Assembly (NCBI GenBank): GCA_019637795.1
Contig: JAHBUY010000002.1
Location: 310,001-374,000, forward strand
Reading direction: 5' to 3'
Length of the DNA: 64,000 nucleotides
DNA from: a bacterium
GTDB taxonomy: Bacteria; Desulfobacterota; Binatia; HRBIN30; CADEER01
A program made the translations under genes and the position numbers. Shown here in pieces: positions 42,736 to 46,973 of this stretch. The notes beneath the pieces were generated by a model. That model was given only the letters and a program-made list of their open reading frames with translations, was not told the origin of the DNA and ran no database searches. Numbering within the stretch: position 1 is the first letter of the stretch; every line of letters begins with the position of its first letter.

Positions 42736-43266
42736 ATGATCCTGCAGCGCCTCGTGCCCCATCCCGACACGCCGTCCCCGGCGGTGCGCGAGCTGACCGT
42801 CGCGGTCGAGCCCGCCCGGGCCAGCGTCCGCCTCGCCTACACGCTGCGCGGCGACCTCGACGCCCTGGCGATTCCCGCCGCGACCACGCCGCGCCCCGCC
42901 GACGAGCTCTGGCGCCACACCTGCTTCGAGGCGTTCGCCGCCCCCGGCGAGGGCGAGCCGTACTACGAATTCAACTTCGCGCCGTCCGGCCAGTGGGCAG
43001 TGTACGGATTCGCGGCCTACCGCCAGCGCCGCGACGGCGCCACCCTGGCGCCGTCGACCGCCTGGGAGCGGGACGCGGATCGCCTGCTCCTCAACGCCGT
43101 GCTGCCGATGGCGCCGCCGCTCCGCCTCGGCCTCTCCGCCGTCATCGAGACCCGCGCCGGCGCCCACGCCTACTGGGCGCTGCGCCACCCGGGCCCGCGC
43201 CCCGACTTCCACCACGCCGGCAGCTTCGCGCTCCACCTGCCCGCGGGCGAGGACCCGCGATGCTGA
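42736..43266 (+). CDS. DOMON-like domain protein
   Basis: 176 residues from ATG 42736, with AGAAGGG just upstream. Beta-sandwich pattern with ELWRHTCFEAFAAPGEGEPYYEFNFAPSGQWAVYGF, found in DOMON-like/CBM9-like proteins. No signal peptide, so apparently cytoplasmic. It overlaps the next gene by seven bases, tying it to the NamZ-like protein. Possible sugar or haem binding, not shown. Confidence 0.75.
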   Translation: MILQRLVPHPDTPSPAVRELTVAVEPARASVRLAYTLRGDLDALAIPAATTPRPADELWRHTCFEAFAAPGEGEPYYEFNFAPSGQWAVYGFAAYRQRRDGATLAPSTAWERDADRLLLNAVLPMAPPLRLGLSAVIETRAGAHAYWALRHPGPRPDFHHAGSFALHLPAGEDPRC

Positions 43267-44465
43267 CCGGCCTCGACCGCCTGCTCGCCGAGCCGGCGCT
43301 GCGCGCGCCCCTCGCCGGCCGGCGCGTCGCCCTGCTGGCGCATCCGGCGTCGGTCACCGCCGATCTGACGCACGCCCTCGACGCTCTCGCCGCCTGCGGC
43401 GACCTGCGCCTCAGCGCCGCGTTCGGACCGCAGCACGGCCTGCGCGGCGACAAGCAGGACAACATGGTCGAGTCGCCGGACTTCACCGATCCGCGCCACG
43501 GCATCCCGGTGTTCAGCCTCTACGGCGACGTGCGCCGGCCGACGGCGGCGATGATGGCGACGTTCGACGTGCTGCTGGTCGACCTGCAGGACGTCGGCAC
43601 CCGCATCTACACCTTCGTCACCACGCTGCGCTACGTGCTCGAGGAGGCCGCGGCGCGCGGCAAGGCGGTCTGGGTGCTCGACCGCCCGAACCCGATCGGC
43701 CGCCCGGTCGAGGGTCCGCTGCTGCGCCCGGGCTGGGAGAGCTTCGTCGGCGCCGGTCCGCTGCCGATGCGCCACGGGCTGACCCTCGGCGAGTTGGCGC
43801 GCTGGTTCGTCCGCCACCTCGCCCTCGATCTCGACTGCGCCGTGGTCGAGATGCGCGGCTGGGATCCCGCCGCGCCGCCCGGCTGGGGCTGGCCGCTCGG
43901 CGAGCGCGCCTGGGTGAACCCGAGCCCGAACGCCGCGACGCTCGGGATGGCCCGCGCCTATCCGGGGACGGTGATGCTCGAGGGCACGACGCTGAGCGAG
44001 GGGCGCGGCACCACCCACCCGCTGGAGCTGTTCGGCGCCCCCGACCTCGACCCCGAGGCGCTGCTCGCCCGCATGGCCGCGCTCGCGCCCGCCTGGCTCG
44101 CCGGCTGCCGCCTGCGCCCGTGCTGGTTCGACCCCACCTTCCACAAGCACGCCGGCCACCTCTGCGCCGGCGTCCAGATCCACGTCGAGGACGGCGCCTA
44201 CGCCCACGACGCCTTCCGCCCCTGGCGCCTGGTCGCCCTCGCCTGCAAGGCGCTGCGGGCGCTGCGCCCGGACTACCCGCTGTGGCGCGATTTCGCCTAC
44301 GAGTACGAGCACGAGCGCCTGGCCATCGACCTGATCAACGGCGGTCCGCTGCTGCGCGAGTGGGTCGACGACCCCGCCGCCACCCCGCAGGACCTCGATG
44401 CCCTCGCCGCCGCCGACGAGATCGCCTGGGCGGCGGAACGCGACGACGTCCTGCTGTATCGCTGA
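43260..44465 (+). CDS. namZ: DUF1343 protein, NamZ-like exo-N-acetylmuramidase
   Basis: 401 residues from ATG 43260, inside the last codons of the DOMON gene. Family motifs: VALLAHPASVT, FGPQHGLRG, LLVDLQDVGTRIYTF, LDRPNPIGR, NPSPNAATL and EGTTLSEGRGTTHPLELFGAP. The family (GH171) releases MurNAc from muropeptides in peptidoglycan recycling. Unlike secreted NamZ this protein has no signal peptide, so it would act inside the cell, or export is by another route. Coupled to the DOMON-like protein, which may help bind glycans. Confidence 0.85.
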   Translation: MLTGLDRLLAEPALRAPLAGRRVALLAHPASVTADLTHALDALAACGDLRLSAAFGPQHGLRGDKQDNMVESPDFTDPRHGIPVFSLYGDVRRPTAAMMATFDVLLVDLQDVGTRIYTFVTTLRYVLEEAAARGKAVWVLDRPNPIGRPVEGPLLRPGWESFVGAGPLPMRHGLTLGELARWFVRHLALDLDCAVVEMRGWDPAAPPGWGWPLGERAWVNPSPNAATLGMARAYPGTVMLEGTTLSEGRGTTHPLELFGAPDLDPEALLARMAALAPAWLAGCRLRPCWFDPTFHKHAGHLCAGVQIHVEDGAYAHDAFRPWRLVALACKALRALRPDYPLWRDFAYEYEHERLAIDLINGGPLLREWVDDPAATPQDLDALAAADEIAWAAERDDVLLYR

Positions 44466-44477
44466 CGCGCGCCGGCG

Positions 44478-45638
44478 CTACGCCGCGCGCGGCCAACGAC
44501 CGTCGCGGCCGCCGACGTAGCGCGCGGCCGGGCGGATCAGCCGGTTGGCCTCCATCTGCTCGAGGATGTGCGCCGTCCAGCCGCCGACGCGGGCGAGCGC
44601 GAAGGTCGGCGTGAACAGCTCCGCCGGCAGCCCCACGCCGTGCAGCAGCAGCGCGGTGTAGAACTCGACGTTGGTGTCCAGCCGGCGCCGCGGTTTCAGC
44701 TCGCGCAGCACGCGCAGCGTCGCCGCCTCGACGATCCGCGCGTCGGCGATCAACGTCCCGTCGCCGCCGCGCGCGCCGAGCGCCAGCGCCGCGGCCCCGA
44801 GCACGTCGGCGCGCGGGTCGCGAACGCGATAGACGCGATGCCCGAATCCCATCATGCGAGCCCCGGCGCCCACCTCGCGGCGAACGTACGCGTCCGTCTC
44901 CGCCTCCAACGTGCGGCCGGAACGCGCCGCCGCAGCGCGCAGCGCGAACACCATGTCCAGCGCCGGTCCCGGCGCGCCGCCGTGCAGCGGACCCTTCAGC
45001 GCCCCGATCGCCCCGACCACCGCCGAGCACGGGTCGGACTGGGTGCTGGCGATCACCCGGGCGGTGAAGGTGGAGGCGTTCATGCCGTGGTCGACCACCG
45101 TGTTGCAGTAGGTCTCCAACGCCCGCACCACCGCCGGATCCGCCTCGCGGCCGTCGAGCAGCCAGAGGAAGTGCGCGACGTGGCCGAGATCGCGCCGCGG
45201 CGCCGGCAGCCCGCGCCCGGCCCGCTCGCGCCAGTACGTCGCGATCACGGTCGGCATCGCCGCCACCAGAGTGATGGCGTCGTCGAGCGCCGCCGCCCGA
45301 TCGCCGCCGCCGCGCGCCCCGAGGCTGAGGCTCGCGACCCCCATGCGCAGCGCGTCCATCGCCGGCACCGCCCGCCGCGCCGCGTCGCGCAGCAGCGCCC
45401 GCGTCGCCGCGGGCAGCCCCCGCCGCGCCGCCAACGCCTCGGCCAGCGCCGTCCGCTCCGCCGGGCTCGGCAAGCGCCCGTGCCACAGCAGGGACAGCAC
45501 CTCCTCGAAGTGGGCGTGCGGCGCCAGCTCCTCGACCGGGTAGCCGCCGATGATCAACCGACCGCGCTCGCCGTCCACCTCGCTCAAGCGCGTCGCCGCC
45601 ACCACCACGCCCTCCAGTCCCGCTGCGATGTCGTCCAT
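44478..45638 (-). CDS. Citrate synthase family protein
   Basis: 386 residues from ATG 45638 behind GGGAGGG. Catalytic His residues lie in GPLHGGAPGPAL and MGFGHRVYRV; the third position reads RLDTNVEFYTALLL, with Glu where classical citrate synthases have Asp (NVDF). I recall NVEF in some short citrate/methylcitrate synthases, so it is probably active. It condenses acetyl- or propionyl-CoA with oxaloacetate. Divergent from a helix-turn-helix-citrate synthase fusion across an AT-rich region with three palindromes. Confidence 0.88.
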   Translation of the reverse strand: MDDIAAGLEGVVVAATRLSEVDGERGRLIIGGYPVEELAPHAHFEEVLSLLWHGRLPSPAERTALAEALAARRGLPAATRALLRDAARRAVPAMDALRMGVASLSLGARGGGDRAAALDDAITLVAAMPTVIATYWRERAGRGLPAPRRDLGHVAHFLWLLDGREADPAVVRALETYCNTVVDHGMNASTFTARVIASTQSDPCSAVVGAIGALKGPLHGGAPGPALDMVFALRAAAARSGRTLEAETDAYVRREVGAGARMMGFGHRVYRVRDPRADVLGAAALALGARGGDGTLIADARIVEAATLRVLRELKPRRRLDTNVEFYTALLLHGVGLPAELFTPTFALARVGGWTAHILEQMEANRLIRPAARYVGGRDGRWPRAA

Positions 45639-45681
45639 GATCCGCCCTCCCGGCGCCACTGCGGCGCGCCACCGGATGCTC

Positions 45682-45739
45682 ATCAATTGATTCTGTGCTG
45701 TCAATCTTGATTGGTAATTACATGATTGACTGCTCAATC
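45682..45739. promoter_or_regulatory. Triple palindrome between the two citrate synthase genes
   Basis: Three dyads share the half-site CAAT: ATCAATTGAT (45682-45691), CAATC-TT-GATTG (45702-45713) and GATTGA-CTGC-TCAATC (45724-45739), all perfect. The block is strikingly AT-rich in this genome, and lies 43 bases from one start codon and 22 from the other. It probably holds both promoters and the binding sites of the HTH domain of the neighbouring fusion. Confidence 0.65.
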
Positions 45740-45761
45740 AATGTAGTGATACCGGGCGCGC

Positions 45762-46973
45762 ATGCCGACCTATCTCAGCGCGCGCGAGGCCGCGGCGGAG
45801 CTCGGCGTCAGCCTGGCGACCCTGTACGCGTACGTGAGCCGCGGGCAGATCCGCTCCGAGCGCGAGGGCGCGGCGCGCCAGCGGCGGTATCTCGCCGAGG
45901 ACGTCTGGCTGCTGAACGCGCACAAGCGCGGCCGGCGCGATCCGGCGCGGGCGGCGCGGGAGGCGCTGCACTGGGGCATGCCGGTGCTGGAGTCGCGTCT
46001 CTCGGTGATCCACGGCGGGCGTCTGTACTACGCCGGCCATGACGCGGTGGAGCTGGCGGCGCGGGCGACCATCGAGCAGGTGGCGGCGCTGCTGTGGTCG
46101 GGCGACGTCGACTCGCCGCTGCCGGCGGAGCCGATCGCCAGCGACGCCGTCGAGTGGCGCAGCGCCGCGGCCCTGGCGCGGCGGGTGGCGCCGCTCGACG
46201 GCCTGCAGCTCTTCCTGCCGCTGGCGGCGGCGCGCGACCCGCACGCCTTCGACCTGCGGCCGCTGGCGGTGCAGCGCGCCGGCGGCCGCATCCTGCGCGT
46301 CCTCGCGGCGGCGGCGGCGGGAACGCGGCCGACGACGGAGCCGGTGGCGCGCCTGCTGCAACGGCGCTGGGCGCCGCGCGATCCCGGCGCGGCGCGCCTG
46401 CTCGACGCGGCCCTGGCGCTGTACGCCGACAACGGCCTCAATCCGTCGAGCTTCACCGCCCGCTGCGTCGCCTCGGCCGGGTCGACGCCCTACGCCGTGG
46501 TGACCGCCGGCCTGGCGGCGCTGCAGGGCGTCAAGCACGGCGGCGCCTGCGAGCGCGCCGCCGGGCTGCTCGACGAGGTGCGCGACGCGCGCGGCGCGGC
46601 GGCGACGCTGGCGGCGCGGCTGCGCCGCGGCGAGGCGGTGCCCGGCTTCGGCCACCCGCAGTATCCCGACGGCGATCCGCGCGCCGCGCACCTGCTGGAA
46701 CGGCTGGCGGCGCACCGGCCGTCGTCGCCCGAGGTGGCGCGGGCGCGGGCGCTGGTCGACGCCGTCGGCGCGGCGATGAACGAGCGGCCGACCATCGACT
46801 TCGCGGTCGTCGCCCTCTGCCGCACCCTCGGGCTGCCGCCCGGCGCGCCGCTGTGGCTGCTCGGCGTGGCGCGGGTCGTCGGCTGGATCGCGCACGGCCT
46901 CGAGCAGTACCAGGAGGGCCGCGCCATCCGGCCGCGCGCCCGCTACGCCGGCGCGCTGCCGGCCGCGGAGTGA
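45762..46973 (+). CDS. Helix-turn-helix-citrate synthase fusion
   Basis: 403 residues. Residues 1-55 are an excisionase/MerR-like DNA-binding domain: YLSAREAAAELGVSLATLYAYVSRGQIRSE...RRYLAEDV. A citrate synthase domain follows with all three catalytic positions present: QGVKHGGACE, VPGFGHPQYP and PTIDFAVVAL. Such fusions are known in proteobacteria, but their role is unsettled. Given the divergent citrate synthase gene and triple palindrome, I infer a regulator that senses acetyl-CoA, oxaloacetate or citrate through its enzyme-like domain. Confidence 0.85.
   Translation: MPTYLSAREAAAELGVSLATLYAYVSRGQIRSEREGAARQRRYLAEDVWLLNAHKRGRRDPARAAREALHWGMPVLESRLSVIHGGRLYYAGHDAVELAARATIEQVAALLWSGDVDSPLPAEPIASDAVEWRSAAALARRVAPLDGLQLFLPLAAARDPHAFDLRPLAVQRAGGRILRVLAAAAAGTRPTTEPVARLLQRRWAPRDPGAARLLDAALALYADNGLNPSSFTARCVASAGSTPYAVVTAGLAALQGVKHGGACERAAGLLDEVRDARGAAATLAARLRRGEAVPGFGHPQYPDGDPRAAHLLERLAAHRPSSPEVARARALVDAVGAAMNERPTIDFAVVALCRTLGLPPGAPLWLLGVARVVGWIAHGLEQYQEGRAIRPRARYAGALPAAE

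Follow-up and report, generated by a model that had tools for sequence, protein, structure and literature searches.

The window, by which we mean the whole 64,000-nucleotide stretch of DNA that was analyzed, harbors a back-to-back pair of citrate-synthase-family genes that are divergently oriented and share a 123-bp gap (Table 1). One of them encodes a CitA-like citrate synthase (CS), while the other encodes a fusion of an HTH domain to a citrate synthase body (HTH-CS). Sequence comparison across relatives makes it very likely that HTH-CS acts locally as a dedicated one-component transcription factor, which would regulate the divergent CS gene as well as its own expression, most probably by repression. 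An enzyme fold thus seems to have found new use as a metabolite sensor, still listed in databases as citrate synthase.

Table 1. Coordinates (positions in the window) of the two citrate-synthase-family genes and of the putative operator elements between them.
Feature	Position	Strand	Remarks
CitA-like citrate synthase (CS)	44478-45638	-	386 aa, TNVEF motif, PF00285 353 bits; proposed target gene
Divergent intergenic region common to both genes	45639-45761	.	
Accessory half-site ATCAATTGATT (dyad 1 of the original prediction)	45682-45692	+	TTGAT/C pattern across loci
First operator arm GTCAATCTTGATT	45700-45712	+	exact match to conserved arm
Second operator arm AATCAATG	45736-45743	+	about 19 bp beyond usual position
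HTH-citrate synthase (HTH-CS) fusion	45762-46973	+	403 aa, PF12728 + PF00285; proposed regulator

Both ORFs of the divergent pair are present as had been claimed from the sequence. Translation of CS is taken to start with the ATG at 45638, which gives the stated length; the mechanically called ORF reaches upstream to a TTG (45737) inside the operator. The top PDB match of CS is CitA of Bacillus subtilis (2c6x, E 1e-76). The genome (6.16 Mb, 12 contigs) carries a third CS, of type I, elsewhere (C1:906117-907202), so neither gene of the divergent pair need be the housekeeping enzyme. The CS gene is directly adjoined, in convergent orientation, by a gene for a NamZ-type exo-beta-N-acetylmuramidase (43260-44465).

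HTH-CS combines a DNA-binding domain and a small-molecule-binding domain in one chain. Its N-terminus matches HTH_17 (PF12728, residues 4-48, scoring 27.9 bits where 27 is the cut-off) and its body matches Citrate_synt (PF00285, residues 71-392, E 2e-60); the domains as a whole span residues 4-50 (HTH) and 71-398 (CS). In the AlphaFold2 model (mean pLDDT 86), the HTH at the N-terminus is joined to the CS body by a linker of low confidence (residues 61-75), and the nearest PDB folds are 2-methylcitrate and citrate synthases. Against the MerR profiles, HTH-CS scores below the cut-off for PF00376 (23.1 vs 28.2) and marginally above it for PF13411 (21.8 vs 21.6). The Pfam domain scan reported no LysR (CitR-type) domains for this protein.

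The gap between the two genes is AT-rich, as originally noted, with 54% GC compared to 73% for the window, and its core (45680-45750) falls to 34%. The three perfect dyads described there are also real (45682-45691, 45702-45713 and 45723-45740): three dyads with an arm of at least 5 and a gap of at most 4 were seen against 0.4 in local shuffles (P 0.024), and there are 7 CAAT/ATTG words, compared with 0.07 predicted from their rate in the window and 0.9 in local shuffles (P<1e-4). What is conserved, however, is not a set of three palindromes but a 13-bp arm followed, in the window, by a displaced AATCAATG. Dyad 2 corresponds to the first arm, dyad 3 holds the displaced second arm, and dyad 1 overlaps an accessory TTGAT/C. 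The same displacement of the second arm is found in one relative (L010).

The unit conserved among related loci is GTCAATnTTGATT-N4/5-AATCAAT. Comparison of the dyads across homologous loci found the half-site conserved beside other HTH-CS genes: of 47 non-redundant HTH-CS genes (<85% identical), 35 have the arm GTCAATnTTGATT, with up to 2 mismatches, in the 250 bp upstream of them, against 0.9 expected from dinucleotide shuffles, although these loci share descent and the sites are not fully independent. The second arm is nearly as regular, with ATCAA beginning 3-6 nt past the first arm in 33 of 37 aligned sites, and L011 carries a near-complete dyad, GTCAAGATTGAAT-CGTG-AATCAATATTGAC. In addition, 12 of 34 loci have the accessory TTGAT/C at most 20 nt upstream of the first arm, compared with 1.5 in shuffles. 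The operator ranges over Binatota-like MAGs, Chloroflexota (L007, L008), Deinococcota, Actinomycetota and Pseudomonadota. The loci come from these and other MAGs and from Deinococcus (L029, L038), Nonomuraea (L044), Agrobacterium (L028), Azospirillum (L036), Niveispirillum (L030), Chelatococcus (L031), Ewingella (L032) and Burkholderiales (L033, L037, L040-L042, L050). The invariance of the operator is matched by that of the HTH, in which residues T20, Y22, V25, S26, R27 and G28 do not vary among 36 homologues. In four loci (L039, L041, L042 and L045) the operator reaches or overlaps the HTH-CS start codon, which is in line with autorepression.

The operator is also nearly exclusive to HTH-CS loci. 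The genome to which the window belongs has a single exact copy of the arm, at the window locus, and a multi-site regulon in this genome was therefore rejected. A strict full-operator pattern was scanned in 148 genomes of the same class, 41 with HTH-CS and 107 without detected HTH-CS. The exact operator was found in 13 of the former, always beside the HTH-CS gene, and in 1 of the latter (Fisher P 1e-7), while a reversed control pattern gave 0 matches in the same scan. Most of the HTH-CS genomes of the class that lack the full operator belong to one family (f5), whose HTH-CS proteins are longer, stand-alone and without operator. A clade of such longer stand-alone proteins (427-442 aa, no operator) was seen in L021, L022, L023, L071 and L075-L078. 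A promoter-like TTGACG...ATGGCGTGATT recurs upstream of three of the longer stand-alone genes, and in L021 and L023 the divergent neighbor of HTH-CS resembles inositol-phosphate synthase.

The 35 loci with an operator differ in the gene that faces HTH-CS. This gene encodes a CitA-like CS in 14 and a GltA-type CS in two (NF004126 above cut-off in L016). In seven it encodes an HMGL-like enzyme (PF00682) related to homocitrate, isopropylmalate and citramalate synthases, a count that includes a partial ORF in L018 assigned by its likeness to L019. The HMGL-like partners have a different fold from CS but belong to the same reaction type, the condensation of an acyl-CoA with a 2-oxoacid, so that 23 of the 35 partners are condensing enzymes of this kind or their relatives. 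The remaining ones are CoA-transferases (2), operons of 2-hydroxyacid dehydrogenases or transporters (5), a Rieske-oxygenase cluster (1) and others (4). The HMGL-like partners in L007, L019, L029, L038, L044 and L066, which come from several phyla, are uncharacterized; their best model is the nifV homocitrate synthase, with scores below its cut-off. The idea that HMGL-like partners are Re-citrate synthases that replace a missing CS was not supported, since, of the four class genomes with this pairing that were checked, three (G311, G349 and G375) encode an additional CS of the Si type and one (G336, 84% complete) shows none. By eye, the CitA-like partner CS in L020 (2751-4199) has an N-terminal extension resembling CBS domains.

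The HTH-CS proteins of the operator type group together in the tree, with a support of 87/99 that falls slightly short of the strict threshold, while the partner type switches repeatedly on the tree. A constant protein and operator with changing neighbors are the signature of a regulator, while an enzyme subunit would be expected to keep its partner.

The catalytic residues were compared in both proteins. The original prediction that the fusion has all three catalytic positions holds, with His259, His298 and Asp346 present, and the substrate-binding arginines are kept as well. It missed that the oxaloacetate-binding His of CS is replaced by Asn in the clade of the window's HTH-CS; at the same position, equivalent to E. 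coli His226, two homologues from Burkholderiales (L041 and L042) have Gln. The separate CS was correctly described as having Glu at the third catalytic position (TNVEF). Glu is common to all CitA-like partner enzymes and to B. subtilis CitA (2c6x), and is thus a mark of the subfamily and not a defect; the reading of CS as a degenerate enzyme (Asp to Glu) was rejected on these grounds.

HTH-CS could also be a trigger enzyme, that is, an active citrate or methylcitrate synthase that also binds DNA and couples turnover to gene control. Nearly all homologues retain the catalytic His/His/Asp and the Arg positions for the substrate, which suggests that the CS domain may still be enzymatic. We consider this reading unlikely, given the replacement of the oxaloacetate-binding His described above and the weak match to curated enzyme models (TIGR01800, 147.8 bits against a cut-off of 421.3; NF009005, 147.1 against 332). 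In addition, Caulobacter CitC, a possible member of the family, does not complement E. coli gltA (PMC7083601). The catalytic residues are also lost in two homologues: the triad is Q/H/F in L046, a partial loss with the HTH kept, and L/L/E in L047, where both His are gone and Glu stands for Asp while HTH and operator are kept. In these two loci (L046:3441-4742, Acidovorax pACP3.2; L047:3444-4733, Massilia WG5) HTH-CS is divergent from Rieske oxygenase genes. Because the operator persists despite partner change and despite the catalytic loss in L047, the most fitting reading of HTH-CS is that of a local, dedicated transcription factor whose sensor domain derives from CS.

A mechanism may be proposed for such a factor. 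The N-terminal HTH, of the MerR/excisionase type, would bind the first arm and the displaced second arm, and the CS-derived domain would serve as a dimerizing metabolite sensor. On the operator, the HTH-CS dimer would repress both divergent genes, including its own, and repression could be relieved or strengthened by a ligand in the CS pocket, such as a 2-oxo acid (for instance oxaloacetate), an acyl-CoA or a citrate-like product. For this protein we infer DNA binding, dimerization, a ligand, and repression instead of activation. The first arm contains, on the minus strand, a perfect -35 hexamer facing the CS gene (TTGACA, 45704-45699), and its occupation would occlude RNA polymerase at the CS promoter. 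Occlusion is also suggested by -10-like hexamers enriched 17 bp beyond the first-arm TTGACN across loci (z 3.7). No sigma-70 promoter in the 123-bp gap passes a simple scan, so repression via overlap with the -35 is only suggested. As for the switch that had been predicted, its regulatory character is strongly supported by the conserved half-sites and by the near-exclusive presence of the full operator at HTH-CS loci, while the element involved differs from the three dyads. That HTH-CS might sense TCA or methylcitrate intermediates is plausible; in other genomes the operator targets extend past citrate chemistry.

Activation is conceivable too, although we hold it improbable. HTH-CS might sit in a long-spacer promoter, as MerR-type activators do, and activate the divergent gene through DNA distortion. 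Its HTH is MerR-like, judging from the marginal PF13411 match, and TATA-like hexamers toward the divergent gene are enriched 19-20 bp from the second-arm TTGAT (z 4.3). However, the conventional reading, with the first-arm TTGACN as -35 and the 17-bp spacing given above, does about equally well, and the displacement of the second arm means that the long-spacer geometry is not kept in the window. Finally, global carbon control of CS genes is common, but it is very improbable that the site is the operator of another, global regulator and the HTH of HTH-CS a relic, since genomes carry roughly one such site each, almost always at the HTH-CS gene irrespective of which gene faces it, and the recognition-helix residues are invariant.

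In B. subtilis, the LysR-type regulator CitR is divergent from the minor citrate synthase CitA. This citA-citR pair is the closest analogue of the locus described here, as it likewise places a CitA-like CS with Glu at the third position opposite a dedicated local regulator; unlike CitR, the putative regulator of the window has a CS fold and a MerR/excisionase-like HTH. Local metabolite control of CS gene expression, as predicted for HTH-CS, is also exerted by Bacillus CcpC, a LysR regulator of TCA genes that responds to citrate, its demonstrated ligand (PMC8514465); the sensor domains are unrelated. Caulobacter crescentus has two CS-family genes with consecutive locus tags, citB and citC (CCNA_03757 and CCNA_03758). 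CitB is 37% identical to B. subtilis CitA and complements E. coli gltA, while CitC does not (PMC7083601). This is the behavior predicted for an enzyme-regulator pair, and CitC, which is not described as a regulator in that study, is by its published behavior a candidate member of the HTH-CS family.

No description of an HTH-citrate synthase regulator was found in the open-access literature. NCBI annotates HTH-CS homologues as 'citrate synthase family protein'; WP_236762366.1 (pAt, A. fabrum C58) and WP_109332332.1, for example, share the protein family and the operator of the window's fusion, but their annotation is that of an enzyme family with no regulatory role. The family of regulators would be new, while its general kind, a one-component factor with an enzyme-derived sensor, is already known. 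The comparisons point to what is probably a broad family of transcription factors with a CS-fold sensor, most of whose members are filed as citrate synthases, and in which one ancient operator would have persisted in several phyla and come repeatedly to serve new genes, those of acyl-CoA/2-oxoacid condensing enzymes and of other carboxylate catabolism. If this is true, the annotation of many 'citrate synthases' would be corrected to probable regulators, and the operator motif would predict the targets of HTH-CS. This reading also yields a testable prediction for Caulobacter CitC. The family would then show clearly how an enzyme of central metabolism can become a gene switch over its own relatives.
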